A program made the position numbers and the translations under genes. From Leptolyngbya sp. FACHB-321 (lineage in GTDB: Bacteria > Cyanobacteriota > Cyanobacteriia > Leptolyngbyales > Leptolyngbyaceae): a stretch of DNA of 64,000 nucleotides. Shown here one piece after another: positions 9,408 through 56,997 of the stretch. How positions within the stretch are numbered: the first letter of the stretch is position 1; the number at the start of each line of letters is the position of its first letter. The stretch is from NCBI RefSeq assembly GCF_014695975.1, contig NZ_JACJPI010000074.1, positions 62,001-126,000 on the forward strand. The letters run 5' to 3'. Below the pieces are notes generated by a model. That model ran no database searches and had not been told where the DNA came from. It saw only the letters and a program-made list of their open reading frames with translations.

Positions 9408-10634
9408 ATGACCGATGTTGCTGCGATCGATGACCGCCTGCTTCAGCTTAATCAACGCCTGAAAGCAGCACAGATGGGCTTTCAGATTGAGCGACGAGGA
9501 CAAAAACTGAGTTTACGAGGTCTGCTGCCCCCCCGCCCTGGTAGCTTACGACTTAAACCATCGCAGCAGCGGTTGAGCTTGGGCTTGCCAGCCACGCCTG
9601 CTGGGTTAAAGCAAGCAGAACAAGCGGTGAAGGTGCTCGCTGCACAACTCATTCAAAATACGTTTGACTGGCGCAACTACGACAGCGGCATGGGTTGGGG
9701 GCGACTGGATCAGATGGGTCTGTCACAGCAAATACAAGCCTTCGCACAGGACTTTCTCGCGGAGGCATCACGAGTTCAACAGCCTGCTTCTGCCAAAACG
9801 ACTTGGGAGAAGGCGTATGCTCCGTACTACCGCAAGCTAGAGTCGATCGCGCAGGCAAATCCTCAGTTGAGCTTAGTAGAAGCAATCTACGCAACAGTGC
9901 GTGCTACAGAAGATAATTCTCGCAGTCGTCAGGTTTGCTGCACTGCCTTGAGCGCCCTTGCAACGTTTCTGCACATCGAACTTCCTACTGATCTAAAAGT
10001 TTTCTGGGGCAGCTATGGTGCAAGCCAAACACAAGCCCGTACCTTACCGTCAGATGAACTAATCGCTGCAACCTGGGAGCAAATTCCCAATGTGGGCTGG
10101 CAGTTTGTCTATGCCGTTATGGCAACCTACGGCTTGCGAAACCATGAAGTTTTCTTCTGCGACTACTCAGCGTTACTTCAAGGCAAACCAGAGGCTGTTA
10201 TCCGCGTCCTCAACACTACTAAAACTGGCACTCATGATGTGTGGCCTTTCTACCCCGATTGGGTCGAACACTTTAACCTGCGATCGCTTCAACTCCCAAC
10301 CATTCAAACCGATCTCACCCAGACCACACTCCAGCGCATTGGGCAGCGCGTCACGTCGCAATTCCGGCGCTATGAGTTGCCCTTCTCGCCATACAATCTG
10401 CGCCACGCTTGGGCAGTTCGCACTATCCACTTTGGCTTGCCAGATACCGTTGCCGCTCGCATGATGGGGCACTCCGTTGCAGTGCATACTCGCACCTACC
10501 ATCAATGGCTTACGCATCGCGATCAGCAGCAGGCTGTGGAGACAGCGTTGAATCGGAGCCAGTTTGCTGCGCCGGGAGTAGGGAGTAGGGAGTGGGGAGC
10601 GGGGCGTAGGGAGTGGCAAACGGTAAAAGGCTAA
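9408..10634 (+). CDS. Tyrosine recombinase/integrase-like protein
   Basis: The catalytic domain of a tyrosine recombinase occupies residues about 210-380. Catalytic positions visible are R244 (YGLRNHE), K272 (NTTKTGT), R332 (YNLRHAW), H355 (MMGHS) and Y364 (RTYHQW). The box II histidine is replaced by Y329. An SAM-like core-binding region precedes it. No att site, excisionase or cargo is adjacent and the flanking genes are housekeeping, so this looks like a resident chromosomal recombinase rather than the integrase of a current element. The last 20 residues (GVGSREWGAGRREW and following) are encoded by a G-rich short repeat that has replaced the native C-terminus. Confidence 0.85.
   Translation: MTDVAAIDDRLLQLNQRLKAAQMGFQIERRGQKLSLRGLLPPRPGSLRLKPSQQRLSLGLPATPAGLKQAEQAVKVLAAQLIQNTFDWRNYDSGMGWGRLDQMGLSQQIQAFAQDFLAEASRVQQPASAKTTWEKAYAPYYRKLESIAQANPQLSLVEAIYATVRATEDNSRSRQVCCTALSALATFLHIELPTDLKVFWGSYGASQTQARTLPSDELIAATWEQIPNVGWQFVYAVMATYGLRNHEVFFCDYSALLQGKPEAVIRVLNTTKTGTHDVWPFYPDWVEHFNLRSLQLPTIQTDLTQTTLQRIGQRVTSQFRRYELPFSPYNLRHAWAVRTIHFGLPDTVAARMMGHSVAVHTRTYHQWLTHRDQQQAVETALNRSQFAAPGVGSREWGAGRREWQTVKG
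10574..10616 (+). repeat. GGGAGTAGGGAGT-type short tandem repeat
   Basis: Imperfect copies of a GGGAGT(A/G)GG heptamer-like unit at the 3' end of the recombinase gene, read in frame as its C-terminal tail. The complementary form (CTCCCCACTCCC) recurs inside the egtB-like gene. This type of short repeat is normally intergenic in cyanobacteria. Confidence 0.75.
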
Positions 10635-13110: not shown

Positions 13111-14673
13111 TTAAGAAACCTTGCCGCCGCGAAATCTATAGCCTTTGACGAGGTAATAGTTTTTGATCCAGATGCCAAAGCGCACGATCGCGATCGTAGT
13201 TTGTTCTGAGGTGCGATCGAACTGGGCAAGCAATTCTGGTTGTAACGGATGCCAATCATCCGACAAAAGCAGCGCATTACGACCCTTGAAGGGGGCATCA
13301 CTGGTATACCAAAAGTCAAATTGATCAACGCGATCGGAAATCGCCATTACCACTTTATCGTTAAGCTGATACGCCAATGCTGATGCCGAACGATAGTCTG
13401 TCGTAGCTAAAAAACGATTGCGACCGACTGCTTCAGTTTCTGTTTTAATCGCCGCTTCAACCTGTTGCCAACCGAACAACATCCGTGAATCTGGATCACT
13501 CTCTTTGTCGAATAAAGCTGATAGCGGCAGAACGCTGTAGTGAAGCACCAACAGTGTTGCGAATAATAAGCCATAACATTGGGCGGCAACAAAAAGACGC
13601 TTTGGCAAGGCATGAGAGGCTGAAGACGTAGAGGTTGAAGCTTGCAAATTGTTAGTTAAGCCTCTGCCTTTGCTGACCGCTGACTGCTGACCGCTAACCG
13701 CTCCAAAAACAGCAGGCAGCAAGGGAAACAGCAATAAATAAGCCGTAATATTCCAGTAGTAAAGTGCAGCAGACAGTAGCGAAATGATTGTAAGCGCTAC
13801 GGTAGAGAGAATGAACACCCAAAATGCAACTGTTGGATAAATTGAGCGGATTTTGCTCTGTTGCATTGAACCTTTTAAGCCACGAAAGAAACCCAAACAA
13901 ATGATGGGTGAGACGAGCAGAACTGAGAACAATAAAAAGTTGAAAAAAGGCGAGAATCTAAGGCTAAAGTTGTTCGCTCCAACGCTACGATCGACATAGT
14001 AACGAAACGACTGAAAGTCATTAAAAAGATTCCATAAAAAAATAGGAATTAAGGCTGTAAGTGTGATTGCGCCTGCCAAATAGAGGCGGCGATCGCGCCA
14101 TAAAGGACGCAAGCGTTTGTCTACAGTCAGCGTTGCCACAAAGCCTAACATGACAAAAACAGCATTGTACTTAGACAAAAGAGCTAGCGCGATCGTGCCT
14201 GCCGCACCGTATAAACGCCAGCTTTCGCCCGTACCATTTTCGATATAGCTATCTAAAAAGCGGATAAAGAGATACGTCGATGCTAACGAGAGCGTAATCA
14301 ACAAATGGTCATGCCATGCCAGCGCTAGAAACAAGAAATACAGCGGTGAGGACAGCACCAATAGCACTACCAACCAAAAAGATTGCTGGCTTTTCTCACT
14401 GTAGAGATAGCGAATGATTTGATAATATGTGTAGAAAAGAATTGCATTACTTAACAGATTGGGAAGCCGTAGTACGAACGTAGAACGTCCCAGTACTGCT
14501 GTAAATAACCCTTGCACCCAAGCTTCTAGTGGTGGATGATCGTAGTAAGATAGCGCGGGATACTGCCCCCATAACCAGTAATATGCCTCATCAGGATTGG
14601 GAAAAGTGGCGAACCAAAAGACTAAGCGCAGCAGAATAAAAGCAAGGAGAAACGGCAAGAACGATCGCGGCAT
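13111..14673 (-). CDS. GT39-family membrane glycosyltransferase (ArnT/PMT-like)
   Basis: A multi-pass membrane glycosyltransferase that uses a polyprenyl-phosphate sugar donor and acts on the outer face of the membrane. The catalytic acidic pair is in NPDEAYYW (D28, E29) in the first periplasmic loop, followed by YYDHPPLEAW. About ten hydrophobic segments follow, then a soluble C-terminal domain. Between the last membrane segments, residues about 325-345 (SGQQSAVS onward) are encoded by an intergenic-type repeat in frame. Acceptor is unknown. Length of 520 is typical even with this insert. It stands alone, convergent with rpmA. Confidence 0.88.
   Translation of the reverse strand: MPRSFLPFLLAFILLRLVFWFATFPNPDEAYYWLWGQYPALSYYDHPPLEAWVQGLFTAVLGRSTFVLRLPNLLSNAILFYTYYQIIRYLYSEKSQQSFWLVVLLVLSSPLYFLFLALAWHDHLLITLSLASTYLFIRFLDSYIENGTGESWRLYGAAGTIALALLSKYNAVFVMLGFVATLTVDKRLRPLWRDRRLYLAGAITLTALIPIFLWNLFNDFQSFRYYVDRSVGANNFSLRFSPFFNFLLFSVLLVSPIICLGFFRGLKGSMQQSKIRSIYPTVAFWVFILSTVALTIISLLSAALYYWNITAYLLLFPLLPAVFGAVSGQQSAVSKGRGLTNNLQASTSTSSASHALPKRLFVAAQCYGLLFATLLVLHYSVLPLSALFDKESDPDSRMLFGWQQVEAAIKTETEAVGRNRFLATTDYRSASALAYQLNDKVVMAISDRVDQFDFWYTSDAPFKGRNALLLSDDWHPLQPELLAQFDRTSEQTTIAIVRFGIWIKNYYLVKGYRFRGGKVS
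13671..13702 (-). repeat. GCTGACCGCTGACTG-type short repeat inside a gene
   Basis: Units of GCTGACCGCT and GACTGCTGACCGCT, a short repeat otherwise seen in intergenic DNA here (37691-37714, with a related copy at 44751-44790). It is read in frame within the GT39 gene. Confidence 0.7.
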
Positions 14674-27074: not shown

Positions 27075-27863
27075 ATGTGTCGATTGCTGGGTTACTTAGG
27101 CTTACCGGTTACGCTCGATCGCCTGCTCTATAAGCCGGAGCATTCTCTTATTTCTCAGAGCTATCAACCCCGCGAAATGACTTCTGGCTTGCTGAATGCA
27201 GATGGTTTTGGCACTGGTTGGTATCATCCGCAACGAGAGTCAGATCCATTCACCTACAAAAATACGGTGCCGATTTGGAGTGATAGCAATCTACCGAGCC
27301 TCAGTCGATATATTGAGTCGGGCTGCGTGCTTGCCGCTGTGCGTAGTGCGACTGCTGGACAGTCAGTTGATTTAAGCAATTGTCAGCCGTTTCAGCAGCG
27401 TCTCATCTTAGGCATTCATAATGGCTTCATCGAGAACTTTCGGCAGACCCTCTATCGACCGATTCGCGAGCGCCTTAGTGATGCTACCTATCAGTCGATC
27501 GATGGTAATACCGATTCAGAGCACATTTTCGCTTTGTTGATTAATGTGCTGGAAGCGAATCCGACTATGGCGTTGGCAGACGCTTTTCACAAAACCTTGA
27601 CCATATTATCCGACCTGGGACAGCAGTATCAAACCGAATTTTCTGCCAATTTAGTGATTAGTGACGGACGCCAACTGGTAGCATCGCGTTTTGCAAATCA
27701 TTCCCCGACACCATCGCTCTACTGGTTACGCGACGACCCACTTTTTCCTGATGCTGTGCTGATTGCCTCTGAACCGCTTTTTGCTGGCAACTGGACTGCT
27801 TTCCCAGAACGTAGCATTCTTACTGTGACTCATGACCTCGATATCCAAAGCCGATCAATCTGA
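27075..27863 (+). CDS. egtC: EgtC-like class II glutamine amidotransferase
   Basis: An N-terminal-nucleophile amidohydrolase. In ergothioneine synthesis EgtC removes the glutamate from the gamma-glutamyl sulfoxide intermediate. The catalytic Cys2 follows the initiator (MCRLLGYLG). The substrate-binding region ADGFGTGWYHP, AAVRSAT and LGIHNGFIENF, and the NTDSEHIFALL segment are all family hallmarks. 262 residues, normal. It overlaps the egtB-like start by 32 bp, which indicates translational coupling and supports the EgtC assignment over a generic amidotransferase. egtA and egtD were not found in the window. Confidence 0.85.
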   Translation: MCRLLGYLGLPVTLDRLLYKPEHSLISQSYQPREMTSGLLNADGFGTGWYHPQRESDPFTYKNTVPIWSDSNLPSLSRYIESGCVLAAVRSATAGQSVDLSNCQPFQQRLILGIHNGFIENFRQTLYRPIRERLSDATYQSIDGNTDSEHIFALLINVLEANPTMALADAFHKTLTILSDLGQQYQTEFSANLVISDGRQLVASRFANHSPTPSLYWLRDDPLFPDAVLIASEPLFAGNWTAFPERSILTVTHDLDIQSRSI

Positions 27864-29322
27864 TGTTGTCACCAATAATGTTTTAGCTGATCCTGTTTTA
27901 GCCGCTGACGATCGCGCTAAGGAGCGATCGCACGCCTCCAACTCACTACAAAACCGCCGACAGCAAATAAAGCAGCAGATGGAAGCCTGTCGTCTTGCTA
28001 CGTTGGCGCTGTTTCAAACTGTCGACTACAATACTTTTTGCCAGCAAGCACACCCAGACTTTAGCCCGATCGGCTGGCACCTGGGGCATATCGCTTATAC
28101 AGAAGCCCTTTGGCTACTGGAGCACCTTGCTGGGCTGCCGCCCCAATACCCGCAGTACCGTCGGCTCTTTGCTGCGGATACCTTACCGAAAGCAGAGCGC
28201 GTTTATCTGCCCGACCTTGCCGAAGTGCAGACGTATCTAAGTGCCGTTCGCAAGGCTACTTTTGCCTATTTAGAAACAGCACCACTGGATGAGCAAGAAC
28301 GGCTCTGGCGTTGGTTGCTGCAACATGAAAGCCAGCATGGAGAGACGATCGCGATTGTGCTGGCGCTTATAAAAAGGCAGAAGGCAGAAGGCAAAAGACA
28401 AAAGGTAGAAGAGAGCGGTCAGCCCTCAGCTCTTCGCCCTCAGCTCTTAGCCATTAGCCGTCAAGGCACAACTCAAAACTCAGAACTTAAAACTGTTCCC
28501 TCTACGTCCCTACCTCTTTCGCTCCCCACTCCCCACTCCCGCTCGGCTGAGCGCTCACGTCGAAGCCCACTCCCCACTCCCCAAATCCATATCCCCGCAG
28601 GCTCCTTTGAGTGTGGCAATGAATCCCTTGAGGCGCTAGATAATGAACGTCCGGTGCATCGGGTGTATGTGGAAACTTATTGGATCGATCGCGCTCCTGT
28701 CACCTGTAAGCAGTACCAGGCATTTATGTCAGCCGGTGGTTATCAAGAGCCGCGCTGGTGGTCGGACGAAGGCTGGGCGTGGCTACAGTCGGCTCAGGTC
28801 ATACAGCCGCTTTACTGGTCTGATGCTCCTGATCGTGCTAACCATCCGGTCTGCGGTGTGAGCTGGTATGAAGCCGATGCCTATGCTCGCTTTGTGGGCA
28901 AGCGTCTGCCCACCGAAGCGGAATGGGAAAAAGCAGCAAGCTGGAACCCGATCGTCAAGCAACGACAAACCTACCCCTGGGGTGAAGCCGTACCTAGTGA
29001 GCACGACTGCAACTGCAATCATGCGGTTGGACAAACTACACCTGTCGGTGCGTATCCTGCTGGCACGAGTCCCTTCGGCTGCGAGGATCTGCTAGGCAAT
29101 GTGTGGGAGTGGACAAACTCCTGGTTCGATCGCTACACAGGTTTTGAAGCCTATCCTTATCGCGGCTACTCTGAGGCATATTTTGATGGGCAACATCGAA
29201 TATTGAAAGGCGGCAGTTGGGCAACGCAACCGTCATCCCTGCGCTGTGCGTTTCGTAACTGGTACCATCCTCACGTCCGCGAGATTTTCGCTGGCTTTCG
29301 TTGTGTGTCTGATGTGGGATAG
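27832..29322 (+). CDS. egtB: EgtB-like sulfoxide synthase (DinB + FGE-sulfatase domains) with in-frame repeat insertion
   Basis: A non-haem iron enzyme that couples cysteine or gamma-glutamylcysteine to trimethylhistidine in ergothioneine synthesis. The N-terminal DinB domain (residues about 40-180) has candidate iron ligands in GWHLGHIAY (H83, H86) and HESQHGE (H165, H169). The C-terminal FGE-sulfatase/C-lectin-like domain runs from about residue 251 (IHIPAGSFECG) to the end (GGSWATQ, FAGFRC). Between them, residues about 181-250 are low-complexity and encoded by intergenic-type repeats. The start could alternatively be the ATG at 27979 (MEACRLATLALF). It probably works with the overlapping EgtC. 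Confidence 0.83.
   Translation: MTSISKADQSDVVTNNVLADPVLAADDRAKERSHASNSLQNRRQQIKQQMEACRLATLALFQTVDYNTFCQQAHPDFSPIGWHLGHIAYTEALWLLEHLAGLPPQYPQYRRLFAADTLPKAERVYLPDLAEVQTYLSAVRKATFAYLETAPLDEQERLWRWLLQHESQHGETIAIVLALIKRQKAEGKRQKVEESGQPSALRPQLLAISRQGTTQNSELKTVPSTSLPLSLPTPHSRSAERSRRSPLPTPQIHIPAGSFECGNESLEALDNERPVHRVYVETYWIDRAPVTCKQYQAFMSAGGYQEPRWWSDEGWAWLQSAQVIQPLYWSDAPDRANHPVCGVSWYEADAYARFVGKRLPTEAEWEKAASWNPIVKQRQTYPWGEAVPSEHDCNCNHAVGQTTPVGAYPAGTSPFGCEDLLGNVWEWTNSWFDRYTGFEAYPYRGYSEAYFDGQHRILKGGSWATQPSSLRCAFRNWYHPHVREIFAGFRCVSDVG
28372..28581 (+). repeat. Composite short-repeat insertion within the egtB-like gene
   Basis: Consists of GGCAGAAGGCAGAAGGC units, a CCTCAGCTCTTCGCCCTCAG stretch, AACTCAAAACTCAGAAC units and CTCCCCACTCCCCACTCCC units flanking a GGCTGAGCGCTCACGTCGAA segment. 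Each is a type normally found between cyanobacterial genes. The total is about 210 bp, a multiple of three, and it leaves the frame open. Confidence 0.8.
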
Positions 29323-29413
29323 CGAAAAGCTCGCTTCTGCCTGAAAAAAGCGGTTTGAAGCTAAAAACCTTGCAACTTTGATCTTTTAGCCTTCAGCTTT
29401 TAGCCTTCATCCT

Positions 29414-30124
29414 CTAGCCTTTGCCCCCAATTTGCTCGATCTCTTGGATCACTCGCTTTTTGCTAGCAAGGAGATGGTCTTGAAGGGCTGCGACAGCAGC
29501 AGTTGGGTTGCGATCGCTCACTGCTTGATAGAGGGAGCGATGTTCGCTACGAATTTCTAGCACGTGCGGATTGTGCTGCATCGTCCGCAGCCGCAGCAGC
29601 ATCATTTTGTCAAACACCTGATCGAGCAAGGAAACCAGCCAGGGATTGTCGGCACTTTCGGCTAAAAGCCGATGAAATTGATAATCCATGTGCAGCAGTT
29701 GATAATTGGTCAACTGATGAGTCGGTTGCTCTATGGCTTTCTCTGCCTGCTGAATCGCCAGGTCAAGTTGCTCAAGCTGAGCGGGTGTGGCATGGCGACA
29801 TGCCTCTGCAACTGAAACTTGCTCTAGCGCCATGCGGCAATCGTAAAGATGTGCGGCATCCGTCACTGAGAGCATAGCAACCCGTAGCGCCCCATGCGGA
29901 TCGGTCGTAACGAGGTTCTCTCGCTGTAGCTGACGAATTGCTTCACGAATAGGAGTACGGCTCACTTCTAGGCTGGCTGCCAATTGAGTTTCGACCAAGC
30001 GATCGCCTGCCGACAGTTCTCCTGACAAAATTGCTGTACGCAGCGTTTGATACGTTTGTTCGTGAAGTGATTGAGCGCGTTGGAGCGGACGAGTAGAAAG
30101 AGGCAAAACGGGTGGGAACGCCAA
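29414..30124 (-). CDS. GntR-family transcriptional regulator, FCD type
   Basis: A DNA-binding regulator whose effector is probably a small organic acid or purine-related molecule. The N-terminal winged helix (residues about 20-90) includes LAASLEVSRTPIREAIRQL, the recognition helix region. The C-terminal all-helical FCD domain carries metal-site histidines in HMDYQFHRLL and the RSEHRSLYQAV segment. 236 residues, full length. It is divergent from the porin gene, with two candidate operators in the shared spacer, so it probably regulates itself and the porin. It is convergent with egtB. Confidence 0.92.
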   Translation of the reverse strand: MAFPPVLPLSTRPLQRAQSLHEQTYQTLRTAILSGELSAGDRLVETQLAASLEVSRTPIREAIRQLQRENLVTTDPHGALRVAMLSVTDAAHLYDCRMALEQVSVAEACRHATPAQLEQLDLAIQQAEKAIEQPTHQLTNYQLLHMDYQFHRLLAESADNPWLVSLLDQVFDKMMLLRLRTMQHNPHVLEIRSEHRSLYQAVSDRNPTAAVAALQDHLLASKKRVIQEIEQIGGKG

Positions 30125-37761: not shown

Positions 37762-40158
37762 TTACTCATCATCAAACTCTGGTTCTGCGTCTAATACCTG
37801 TACTGGTTCTGCAACAATTTCGTCATCCGTTGCCTCGCTGCCACCGCCGACTGCAATGAGGTCGATTTGCTGGCGGTAGTAGTCTACGCTCTTCACCTGA
37901 ACTTCTATGCGATCGCCCAGACGATACTGCTTACGGTTTTTGCGCCCGACTAGCGTTTGTTGGCGCGATCGATACTCGTACCAGTCGTCTTTAAGCGAGC
38001 TGACATGTACTAAGCCTTCGACGAGCAACTCTTCGATCTCAACAAACAGCCCGTAGGACTGCACACCCGTAATCAACCCGTGAAAAATTTCGCCGGTGCG
38101 TTCTCGCATCAGTTCAGCTTTCTTCAGTCCTTCCAGGTCTTGCTCGGCTTCTTGAGCGACTTTTTCGCGTTCGCTCAGGTGGATAACTTGAGCCGCAAAG
38201 TAGGTTTCTAACTCTTGCTGAATTTCGGGTGGCAGCACGTTCCAGCTAATGTTGCCGTGCGATGAACTGTGCCGCAAATTGACAGTTTCTTTAGAGCGAC
38301 TGGATTTGCGATCGCGCCCTTCATCAAACAGCGCATGGAGAGACCGTTGCACCAATAGATCGGGATAACGGCGCACTGGCGATGTGAAATGAGTGTAGCC
38401 ATGCTCTAGCGCCAGCCCAAAGTGCGGTCGGGGGGTTGTGCTGTAAAACGCAGGCTTCAGCGTTTCGAGCAGCAGATAGGTCATGACTCGCTCGGCATCA
38501 GATTCGGCAAACTTCTGGGTAAAGTGCTGATAATCCTCTGGGCGTACGAGATCTTCTTGTTCCAGGTGCAGCTCAATACCCATGCTGATGGATAGCTTGA
38601 TGAGTTCTTGCACATCGTCTGGGTCAGGAGTGGGATGCACCCGGTAGAGACTTGGCACACTCAACGCTTGTAGATGACTGGCAACAAGCTGGTTTGCCAG
38701 CAGCATGAATTCGGCGATCGTGGCGTAGGTTGGCACTGAAGGAGAGACGACCATCGCGCCCAGCACACCTTCGTCGTCATAGTGAAACTTCGGCATGAAG
38801 ACGAGCTTGCTGGTATCTTGAGCCTCGCTGCTGCTGGTCAGGCTGCTCGAACTGGGCTTTTCGGGCAGGTTCAGTTCAAACGCGCCTCGCTTGTGGCGTT
38901 GCTCTTTTAGCGCATGGCTCAGTGCCGAGAGTTGGTCTAATAACGCAAACACTGGCTCAAGCGGCTGAATGTCTAGATTCGACGGCTGATCGCTGGCGGT
39001 CGATCGCTCTAGAATTGCTTGTGCCTGCTGATAGCTCAATTGATGGTCAACGTTGATCACCGTTGGCTGAATTTCGTACTCAATGACATTTCCTTCGTTG
39101 TCCAATGTCACCAGGACGGACACAGCGAGCCGATCTTCGCCCGCCTGAAACGCGCAGAGAGAATGGGCGATCGCATCTGGCAGCATGGGAATAACCAGAT
39201 CGCCTAAATAGACAGAAGTGCCGCGTTTGCGAGCTTCGCGATCGATCGGCGAGTCAGGTTCAACATAGTGTGAGACATCCGCAATGTGGACACCCAAGCG
39301 CCAGTGCCCTGTGTCGGTTTGTTCCAGCGTCAGCGCATCATCCAGGCTATCGGTATTTGCCTGACTGCTATCGGCTTTGATCGTCACTGTGGTCAGTCCG
39401 CGCAAATCAACCCGTCCTTTCAGGTCTGTTTTGCTCAGTTTGGTGGGAATTTCTGCTGCTGCTGCTTCTACTGCATCGGTAAAGGTGCGGGAGAGATAAT
39501 GCTTGCAGCACACAATATCAATGTCGGCAGCATCGGTATCAGTTCCAAGAATCTTCGCGACGGTGCCGAGCGGCGGTTGTTGTCCAAGCGGGTAACGCAG
39601 CAGCTTGACGTGCGCCAGGTGGTCGATCGCCTCACCCAGATTGGCACCGTTTTGCGCTTCATCGTCCTGCTGTAGATGCACTTCAAACAACAGGCGATCG
39701 TCTAATGGTACGGCTCGAAACCCATCTTCGGCTTGCTTCACTCGTGCCAGCACAGACGGATTAGACCGCTCTACGATCAGACGCACTTCACCTTCGGGGC
39801 TGCGGCGGCGACTACCTTCTTTTGTGACCCGCACCAGCACGCGATCGCCATTCCAGGCATTACTAAGCTGGCTTTCGCGGATGTAGATATCTTCTGCACC
39901 TTCGATATCTTGGATGGCAAAGCAAAAGCCTTTACTGGAGCAACGCAGCTTTCCTTCCACAACGCCTTCTTCTGTCACCCGCTTGTACCGCCCCCGATCT
40001 TTGGTCAGAATGCCGATTTTTTCGAGCGCATCTAGCGCAATCTGGAGTCTTTGCAGGTCATCATCGTCTCGGCAATCCAGCTTTTTTTCTAAAACTTTGG
40101 GAGCGACCAGCTTGTCATCGGTGAAGTTTGACAGCAGTGCAGCGATCGAAAATTCCAT
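37762..40158 (-). CDS. RNase II/RNase R family exoribonuclease
   Basis: A 3'-to-5' hydrolytic exoribonuclease. The start is taken at 40158 (MEFSIAALLSNFTDDKLV). The frame continues 28 codons upstream without similarity. Domains in order are a helical N-terminal region, a cold-shock domain (residues about 65-140, GFCFAIQDIEGAEDIYI), the RNB catalytic domain with DDALTLEQTDTGHWRLGVHIADVSHYV (in parts) carrying the metal-binding aspartates, RKRGTSVYL, and YTHFTSPVRRYPDLLVQ. A C-terminal S1 domain (HGLITGVQSYGLFVEIEE) follows, then an acidic tail. 798 residues. It is closer to RNase R than RNase II in size. Cyanobacteria usually have one such enzyme. Confidence 0.93.
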   Translation of the reverse strand: MEFSIAALLSNFTDDKLVAPKVLEKKLDCRDDDDLQRLQIALDALEKIGILTKDRGRYKRVTEEGVVEGKLRCSSKGFCFAIQDIEGAEDIYIRESQLSNAWNGDRVLVRVTKEGSRRRSPEGEVRLIVERSNPSVLARVKQAEDGFRAVPLDDRLLFEVHLQQDDEAQNGANLGEAIDHLAHVKLLRYPLGQQPPLGTVAKILGTDTDAADIDIVCCKHYLSRTFTDAVEAAAAEIPTKLSKTDLKGRVDLRGLTTVTIKADSSQANTDSLDDALTLEQTDTGHWRLGVHIADVSHYVEPDSPIDREARKRGTSVYLGDLVIPMLPDAIAHSLCAFQAGEDRLAVSVLVTLDNEGNVIEYEIQPTVINVDHQLSYQQAQAILERSTASDQPSNLDIQPLEPVFALLDQLSALSHALKEQRHKRGAFELNLPEKPSSSSLTSSSEAQDTSKLVFMPKFHYDDEGVLGAMVVSPSVPTYATIAEFMLLANQLVASHLQALSVPSLYRVHPTPDPDDVQELIKLSISMGIELHLEQEDLVRPEDYQHFTQKFAESDAERVMTYLLLETLKPAFYSTTPRPHFGLALEHGYTHFTSPVRRYPDLLVQRSLHALFDEGRDRKSSRSKETVNLRHSSSHGNISWNVLPPEIQQELETYFAAQVIHLSEREKVAQEAEQDLEGLKKAELMRERTGEIFHGLITGVQSYGLFVEIEELLVEGLVHVSSLKDDWYEYRSRQQTLVGRKNRKQYRLGDRIEVQVKSVDYYRQQIDLIAVGGGSEATDDEIVAEPVQVLDAEPEFDDE

Positions 40159-55464: not shown

Positions 55465-56997
55465 TTATTCAGCTTCCTGCCATCCTTCTAACGCAGCCAG
55501 CAAAACATTTACCAATGGATTATCGATCAATTCTTTTAAGGTTTCTATACCTCCCGCTTTAAGCGCACCAACTACTCGCGCTTTTAGTGTTGGATTTTTC
55601 TCAATTGCTTCTACCGCTTTTGTCACCAGCGCCATTTTTTCGGTTTGCGTAGTGGTTGGATAGGATTGAGAGAGTTGTTCAAGCAACTGCTGAATTTCTG
55701 CGGCGGCTTCTGCTAAGGTTTGACGCTGTTTTGGTGCATAGTTGTGCAGAATTGCCTGCTGCCGAGCATTGTCTTGCAGCTTATTGGCGTAGTTGGTGAT
55801 GTTTGCGCCACGTAGATCGGTATTGAAGGTTTCTGACATCAGCCTACTCTCCGCTGTTGCTATTGCTTGAACATTGATAGGTCGATTAATCGCCCATTCA
55901 GCCAATCTCATTATGTTTGTGTTCTCCCGACGGTAGCTTTCAATTTCAATATCTTTTGCTTTTAGTTCATACCGATACTTTTCACCCAGTACTTTCAGCG
56001 CCAACTCATACTCGTGCTTCAAACGGATCTCAACCGTTGCTTTGTCTGCATCAGGTGGCACGTTGACCCGTACCACAAAAGCACCATCATTTTTGTTTTC
56101 AATTGCATGAATTGATAGCTCTGCTCCTTCTGCTTCAACTCGCAGTTTTTCTAACGAGATGAGTAAAGCTGCCCAATCAACACCATTACGGAAGATGAGA
56201 TCAACAGTGCTAAGCGCTTTTTGAAGGAGTTTTGTAAACTCGCCTTGAGCAAATTTTTGGTTGGGATTACTAGGACGGCGCTCAAAAAAGTTGCCTTTTA
56301 TCTCTTCATCTTCTTCGTACCAATCAACCCTCAAATAAATATAATCACATTCAGCCTTCTCTAACTTTGTTTCACTGTTGATATTCCAATCCTGCAAACA
56401 CGCTTCAGTAAATATTGCTTCAGTAAAATCAGTTGCCAGTGCTTCAGTTGCTATTAATATAGCTCCTGTAAGATCAGCACGACTTAGATTTGAGTAACTA
56501 AGACTTGCTCCGCTCAAGTCAGCTCCAACCAGAATCGACATAAAAAGATTAGCCTCGCTGAGACGGGCTTGGTCGAGTTGAGTTGATGCTAGGTTAGCCA
56601 TGAAAAGTTGAGAACTCTGTAGGCTTGCTCTGCTGAGATCAGCCTCAAAAAAGTTTGCTTCACGAAGGTCAGCTAAAATGAGGTTTGCCTTGTAGAGATA
56701 AGCCTGGCTGAAATTGGTCAAGATACAAATTGAGTGGCTTAAATCGGCTTTAATAAGGTCAGCTTCAGTGAGGTCAGCATAACTCAGATCTGAATGGCTC
56801 AAGTTAGCTTCACGGAGCTTAGCCCCACTGAGGTCAGCCGCGATAAGGCTAGCCCCGCTGAGGTCAACCCCGCTAAGGTCAGCCGCGATAAGGCTAGCCC
56901 CGCTGAGGTTTACTTTTACTGCTAAATTATTTCTGCGCCATTCATTCCAGACTTCTACTCCCTGCTTGAGCCGATTGACCTGTTTCTGATTTGCCAC
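55465..56997 (-). CDS. Pentapeptide-repeat protein with C-terminal helical domain
   Basis: Residues about 25-215 are pentapeptide repeats of the A(D/N)LxX type (for example LSGASLIAADLSGVDLSGAS) forming a right-handed beta helix. A soluble region with a Glu/Arg-rich helical stretch (residues about 340-380) follows. The C-terminal domain (about residue 400 to the end) carries NYANKLQDNARQQAILHNYA, AAAEIQQLLEQLSQSYPTTT and AGGIETLKELIDNPLVNVLL, a module I recall at the C-termini of other cyanobacterial proteins, including signal-related ones. 510 residues. Function unknown. Two nearly identical 45-bp DNA copies encode part of the repeat. Confidence 0.82.
   Translation of the reverse strand: MANQKQVNRLKQGVEVWNEWRRNNLAVKVNLSGASLIAADLSGVDLSGASLIAADLSGAKLREANLSHSDLSYADLTEADLIKADLSHSICILTNFSQAYLYKANLILADLREANFFEADLSRASLQSSQLFMANLASTQLDQARLSEANLFMSILVGADLSGASLSYSNLSRADLTGAILIATEALATDFTEAIFTEACLQDWNINSETKLEKAECDYIYLRVDWYEEDEEIKGNFFERRPSNPNQKFAQGEFTKLLQKALSTVDLIFRNGVDWAALLISLEKLRVEAEGAELSIHAIENKNDGAFVVRVNVPPDADKATVEIRLKHEYELALKVLGEKYRYELKAKDIEIESYRRENTNIMRLAEWAINRPINVQAIATAESRLMSETFNTDLRGANITNYANKLQDNARQQAILHNYAPKQRQTLAEAAAEIQQLLEQLSQSYPTTTQTEKMALVTKAVEAIEKNPTLKARVVGALKAGGIETLKELIDNPLVNVLLAALEGWQEAE

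Follow-up and report, generated by a model that had tools for sequence, protein, structure and literature searches.

The linker that joins the two domains of the EgtB-like protein of Leptolyngbya sp. FACHB-321 is encoded by 7-bp tandem repeats that recur elsewhere in the genome of this organism. We consider it likely that these dispersed heptamers were seeded in a permissive loop and have since been turned over under selection on reading frame and stop codons. The window analyzed here is a stretch of 64,000 nucleotides (contig NZ_JACJPI010000074.1, positions 62,001 to 126,000), and the features around the linker are collected in Table 1. The sequence-only reading of this window described about 210 bp of several different short repeats in frame within an egtB-like gene, positioned exactly at the junction of the DinB and FGE domains and leaving the frame and the iron-ligand motifs intact. 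All of this stands: every repeat that it named is present, the insert corresponds exactly to codons 181–250, Pfam ends DinB_2 at residue 173 and begins FGE at 251, the open reading frame (27832–29322, +) runs over its full length without interruption, and the metal-binding residues of the HESQHGE and GWHLGH motifs (H83, H86, H165, H169, and E171) are invariant across 32 homologues.

Table 1 Features of the egtB region; positions count from the first nucleotide of the window
Feature	Position	Strand	Basis
egtC	27075–27863	+	Overlaps egtB start; TIGR03442 equivalog, 339 bits (cut-off 218.65)
egtB-like gene, 496 aa	27832–29322	+	Open frame; DinB_2 and FGE domains; TIGR03440 is best equivalog
DinB_2 domain, residues 49–173	27976–28350	+	Pfam
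Repeat-derived linker, residues 181–250	28372–28581	+	Period-7 score; residues 201–245 with pLDDT under 50
Module A, AAGGCAG heptamers	28374–28411	+	TRF period 7; same-type arrays elsewhere in the genome
AGCCCTC/AGCTCTT heptamers	28419–28452	+	TRF period 14; period-7 tract
Module B, AACTCAA heptamers	28470–28494	+	Sequence
Module C, CTCCCCA heptamers, left part	28522–28540	+	Period-7 tract
26-bp dispersed element GCTCGGCTGAGCGCTCACGTCGAAGC, nested in module C	28541–28566	+	Further genome copies
Module C, right part	28566–28583	+	Period-7 tract
FGE-sulfatase domain, residues 251–492	28582–29307	+	Pfam

The protein carries the DinB_2 and FGE domains with the H-x3-H-x-E motif expected of EgtB, an ergothioneine enzyme (Pfam), and the linked egtC scores above the TIGR03442 cut-off. 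The EgtB equivalog TIGR03440 gives 343 bits, below its cut-off of 360 bits; the same model gives 365 bits for a short-linker congener (L157), 339 for a long-linker one (G002), and 356 and 346 for short-linker outgroups, and is marginal for the cyanobacterial members. For these two reasons—the score below the cut-off and the marginal model—we call the protein EgtB-like, a putative sulfoxide synthase. By sequence as well as by fold, the nearest solved structure is EgtB of Mycolicibacterium thermoresistibile (PDB 4x8b), with the same order of domains, matching metal-binding motifs, and a similar fold (TM 0.71/0.82). However, only ~22 residues lie between the aligned domains of 4x8b, whereas there are ~72 in the protein of FACHB-321. 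The AlphaFold model keeps both domains, continues the last DinB helix into module A, and assigns a pLDDT below 50 to residues 201–245; the linker is thus a predicted disordered segment, which would be translated along with the domains on either side of it. Downstream of the egtB stop codon, the intergenic DNA at 29383–29421 bears TTTTAGCC/TTCAGC repeats.

As a transcript, the linker has no match in an Rfam search and folds no better than shuffles (z −0.51), and an RNA element or structured transcript was rejected on these grounds. They also bear on the idea that the insert is removed or skipped, by intron-like splicing or translational bypass, to give a protein without it. Such inserts do lie in conserved proteins that normally do without them, but they are in frame and stop-free, which makes removal unneeded, and together with the shuffle-like fold and the lack of an Rfam match this renders the idea highly improbable.

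The period-7 score of the linker DNA is 24.0 against ~4 in shuffles, none of the 500 shuffles scoring as high, and TRF reports arrays of period 7/14/21 at 28372–28412 and 28421–28452. This DNA matches ~40 other places in the host genome. Taken alone, the module B pattern AACTCAAAACTCA is only weakly informative, since its reversed-letter control is almost as frequent (50 occurrences versus 40). On a larger scale, 1.19 Mb of the host genome—about one sixth of it, with ~870 genes predicted by a purpose-built dicodon model—contain 158 period-7 tracts, compared with 8 tracts of period 8 and 4 of period 10. As tandem 7-bp units dispersed over the genome, these are cyanobacterial heptamer repeats (STRRs). 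They are enriched between genes, as 97 of the 158 tracts are wholly or mostly intergenic while noncoding DNA makes up only about a fifth of the sample, yet they are not confined there: 61 tracts lie in predicted genes, and so do all five full composites of modules A, B, and C in the sampled DNA. Hence, the sequence-only view of these repeats as normally intergenic describes the larger share of the tracts and misses the genic ones, including the five full A-B-C composites of the sample.

The 26-bp element nested in module C has further copies in the host genome, most of them flanked by CTCCCCA-type heptamers. Its exact 22-bp core is shared by every one of the seven genus genomes and by three further genomes (10 of 30 relatives); the reversed control of this core has zero occurrences in the same genome set. 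With a count of 27 bp, the element brings the heptamers back into register and contributes nine codons. Paired changes in the predicted stem are seen in some variants; the predicted hairpin itself has a z of only −0.45 and folds no better than shuffles. The SDR of Nostoc punctiforme, reportedly described by Elhai et al. in 2008, is said to be a dispersed repeat of 21–27 nt with a predicted hairpin, often nested in heptamer arrays. By this description, the 26/27-bp element, with its mostly constant heptamer context, would be alike in size, dispersal, and nesting. Unlike the SDR, it sits inside a coding frame.

The egtB linker is not a singular event in one gene. In-frame heptamer tracts that keep a distance of 20 codons or more from both gene ends are found in ~20 of the ~870 predicted genes of the 1.19 Mb. 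The host proteins that bear them—their names partly read from sequences and domains—include RecN, PurH, a HerA-like ATPase, AnmK, MenE, HemW, an oxoprolinase, RecJ, a GH116 glycosidase, SbcC, an N-acetyltransferase, and a LysA-like decarboxylase. In congeners, composites lie inside MutS2, MutL, MiaA, RadA, XthA, RecN, a LarB-like protein, SbcC, an ABC ATPase, and others; these were found by similarity to egtB linkers and do not constitute a random sample, and their names are a reading of the sequences, with XthA confirmed. Since the tracts often form loops inside domains, a domain junction is not essential for their accommodation.

Among the composite carriers are the DNA repair proteins MutS2, MutL, RadA, RecN, and SbcC (L252, L278, L275, L281, L280, L282, and L264), and beside these repair proteins of the congeners, RecJ and the HerA-like ATPase carry tracts in the host genome. 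The hydantoinase/oxoprolinase gene of the host (L131:9476–13501; G000 C72:209476–213501) holds seven heptamer tracts in three composites, and a congener (L276) bears composites at two of the same sites. Within the window, a PMT_2 family glycosyltransferase gene (13111–14673, −) contains AGCGGTC-type repeats in frame at 13672–13702, coding for GAVSGQQSAVS; an integrase-like protein (gene 9408–10634, +) has a C-terminal tail (PGVGSREWGAGRREWQTVKG) made of GGGAGTA heptamers (10574–10616); and tandem repeats of 15/45 bp at 56821–56909 (AGCCCCGCTAAGGTC) possibly code for a pentapeptide-repeat stretch.

Three of the shared sites can be followed from species to species. The KLRWL-to-GDFN stretch of XthA is 34, 44, 45, 45, 51, 54, and 76 residues long in the seven congeners, compared with 31 and 29 in two outgroups; in the AlphaFold model, the insert is below a pLDDT of 50 from 143 to 190. 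The corresponding stretch of RadA has 49–97 residues in congeners compared with 19 in an outgroup, and the heptamers differ. The PurH loop is made of GGCAGGA-type heptamers in the host and of AGCGGTC-type heptamers in G002, and shows no obvious arrays in most of the other readable genomes. Judged from these sequences, the loops look like one permissive site each that is filled and refilled, rather than like a fresh insertion each time.

Frame and orientation of the genic repeats are far from random. Modules in genes stand 40:5 in favor of the coding sense, compared with 29:23 between co-directional genes (Fisher p = 3e-4). Genic composites follow both the coding sense and the frame without exception, in 12 of 12 cases in the host genome and in 25 of 25 in congeners (37/37), while those between co-directional genes are split 7:7. 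Inspection of 13 composites that lacked a spanning frame placed one of them (L266) in frame in SbcC and the rest outside genes or at gene ends; no clear gene broken by a tract was found among these 13.

Since 7 is coprime to 3, the seven-residue peptide repeat encoded by an array of heptamers is the same in any frame—GRRQKAE for GGCAGAA, NSKLKTQ for AACTCAA, and LPTPHSP for CTCCCCA. Read in the sense that genes retain, the arrays are free of stops and their peptides hydrophilic, whereas reversed AACTCAA arrays contain TGA and reversed GGCAGAA arrays give the hydrophobic FCLLPSA. Because of this difference, most of the pattern is explained by random seeding and subsequent selection on frame, sense, and solubility. 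Neutral seeding alone does not explain the constant A-B-C order, which may stem from en bloc copying or a structural preference. A further-reaching view takes the A-B-C composite to be a directional repeat family whose spread favors coding loops of conserved proteins, several acting in DNA repair, and traces its retention to the period of 7, by which every frame gives the same soluble peptide. Such a family would supply disordered linkers across the proteome, which might have a function in common; we hold this to be unlikely. As for the surroundings of the inserts, helix propensity is weakly raised upstream (p = 0.003) and strand propensity downstream is not (p = 0.34), and a rule of insertion between helix and strand is not claimed, only its helix side being supported.

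The fixed module order and the coding orientation might also be expected of a mobile element that is active and enters coding loops as a whole, and composites of 160–200 bp indeed recur at 75–80% within a genome and harbor a dispersed 26-bp element. Yet terminal repeats and a transposase were not found, the XthA loop lengths are graded instead of falling into empty or full sites, and the heptamer types vary between species at one and the same site. An element of this kind is therefore a rather improbable source of the composites.

The expectation that EgtB homologues of close relatives would lack the linker finds no support in the genus itself. All congeners—Stenomitos frigidus ULC18 (G001), Tildeniella nuda (G002), Oscillatoriales Centralia_MAG_596 (G003), Leptolyngbya sp. 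ES-bin-22 (G004), Lyngbya sp. HA4199-MV5 (G005), and Stenomitos rutilans (G006)—have a linker at the DinB/FGE junction, mostly of other heptamers. Different heptamers occupy this site in G001, G002, G004, G005, and G006, as a rule with a purine-rich block first, an AACTCAA-like one next, and a pyrimidine-rich one last; the linker of G003 has 34 aa and no significant period-7 signal. Since independent assemblies of the genus agree in having a linker at this site, mostly with heptamers and with the frame kept, an assembly artefact—suspected as repeats are hard to assemble—has next to no probability. In a tree of the two domains, nearly all heptamer-bearing linkers belong to a single part of the Leptolyngbyaceae; that of Calothrix sp. 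NIES-4105 is an isolated and weaker case. Other cyanobacterial EgtB linkers mostly lack heptamers and have 18–40 aa; rather than sharing the same linker at the protein level, distant cyanobacteria have short and unrelated ones.

The linkers match the repeats of their own genome. Dozens of sites in G002 and G005 bear the G002-type composite, 118 bp of the G001 linker are found again in that genome at 91%, and for the G019 linker there are many matching sites within G019; comparison genomes with little or no heptamer signal in the linker give few matches or none (0 in G008, 0 in G009, 1 in G011, and 5 in G017). A conserved functional linker, needed at the protein level for EgtB activity or interaction, would agree with the recurring trend from charged to polar to proline-rich composition. 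However, length and sequence differ in each species, the same peptides appear in unrelated proteins, and other cyanobacterial EgtBs mostly manage with the 18–40 aa mentioned above, which leaves very little credence for such an adaptation.

Across the linkers, the frame is retained at many different lengths: among 14 heptamer-bearing orthologues with both domains assembled, 13 have DinB and FGE in a common frame. Over 11 linkers, stop codons number 0 in the coding frame, compared with 17 and 14 in the other forward frames and 28, 23, and 27 in the reverse frames. The sole exception, egtB of G010, is out of frame, and since purH of G010 is frameshifted as well, sequence errors are the likely cause. 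In G004, contig C518 (L031/L181, end at 40086) stops shortly after eleven tandem AACTCAA units in egtB, with the DinB and FGE frames not meeting at the contig end; the FGE half of this gene was searched for and not found, and variation of the unit number in the population is one possible cause of the assembly break. A fission of EgtB into two genes was rejected, as L180 egtB has an N gap and G010 probably sequence errors; growth in frame-preserving steps of 21 bp was likewise rejected, as the lag-21 identity in genes is not above that at lags 7 and 14.

As 7 is not a multiple of three, each slip by a single unit breaks the frame, and the repeats might hence act as a phase-variation switch that turns EgtB off in part of the population, in line with the out-of-frame G010 gene and the G004 contig break. 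On the contrary, 13 of 14 linkers are in frame, the purH frameshift of G010 suggests sequence errors, the perfect arrays here are short, and the tracts also lie in purH, radA, and mutS2, where off-switching would be harmful. We regard such a switch as very unlikely.

The reading that we favor instead, of seeding and turnover in a permissive loop, would proceed as follows. Heptamer DNA, inserted or copied from dispersed arrays, would have entered the loop in an ancestor of the leptolyngbyacean clade. The linker would then have changed separately in each lineage, growing, shrinking, or exchanging its heptamers for those of another type—by slippage or by recombination with arrays elsewhere, which is the means of copying that we infer—with selection purging changes that break the frame or bring in stop codons. 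The product might be a disordered and presumably nearly neutral linker, and many other proteins would undergo the same process. Repeat DNA as a protein linker, as the sequence-only reading put it, is thus borne out insofar as dispersed repeats form the linker at the junction; the insert, however, is not unique, and not new either.

A comparable situation is met with the Rickettsia palindromic elements (RPEs; Ogata 2000 and 2002, as summarized in PMC10969869), which are dispersed, lie in frame in many unrelated genes, and are presumably tolerated in the products; they are palindromic, ~150 bp long, and code for a conserved peptide. The heptamer tracts share the dispersal and the in-frame position in many unrelated protein-coding genes. 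In contrast, their unit is a nonpalindromic tandem 7-mer whose type and number change between species, and the RNA fold is no better than shuffles. By analogy, they would work like RPEs, while being another type of repeat. With cyanobacterial STRRs they have in common the period of 7, the dispersal, and the mostly intergenic location. In Nostoc PCC 7120, G-rich GGGGA(C/T)T heptamers are 68% intergenic (PMC4692102), and their G-rich strand is under-represented on the coding strand of open reading frames; the orientation of CTCCCCA in host genes is likewise. In work on TAACTGA repeats, MacGregor remarked that repeats may be tolerated between subunits of modular proteins (PMC4679880). PMC4692102 and PMC4679880 treat heptamers as DNA or regulatory repeats, with, in the passages considered, no ordered composites as protein loops and no turnover at a single site across species. 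A partial literature search did not find papers on in-frame heptamer insertions or on heptamer composites as protein loops in cyanobacteria.

To our knowledge, in-frame colonization of bacterial proteins by dispersed repeats is known chiefly from Rickettsia. Here, a free-living cyanobacterial genus bears heptamers as loops of ~20 proteins in one sixth of a genome, repair and biosynthesis enzymes included, which extrapolates to roughly 120 loop-bearing proteins in the full genome. Heptamer inserts may lower family scores, such that genes could be missed or miscalled. The findings suggest a rule by which a repeat unit of a length coprime to 3 codes for one peptide in all frames. With seven species carrying the same sites in different states, the step from repeat to protein segment becomes open to direct study.
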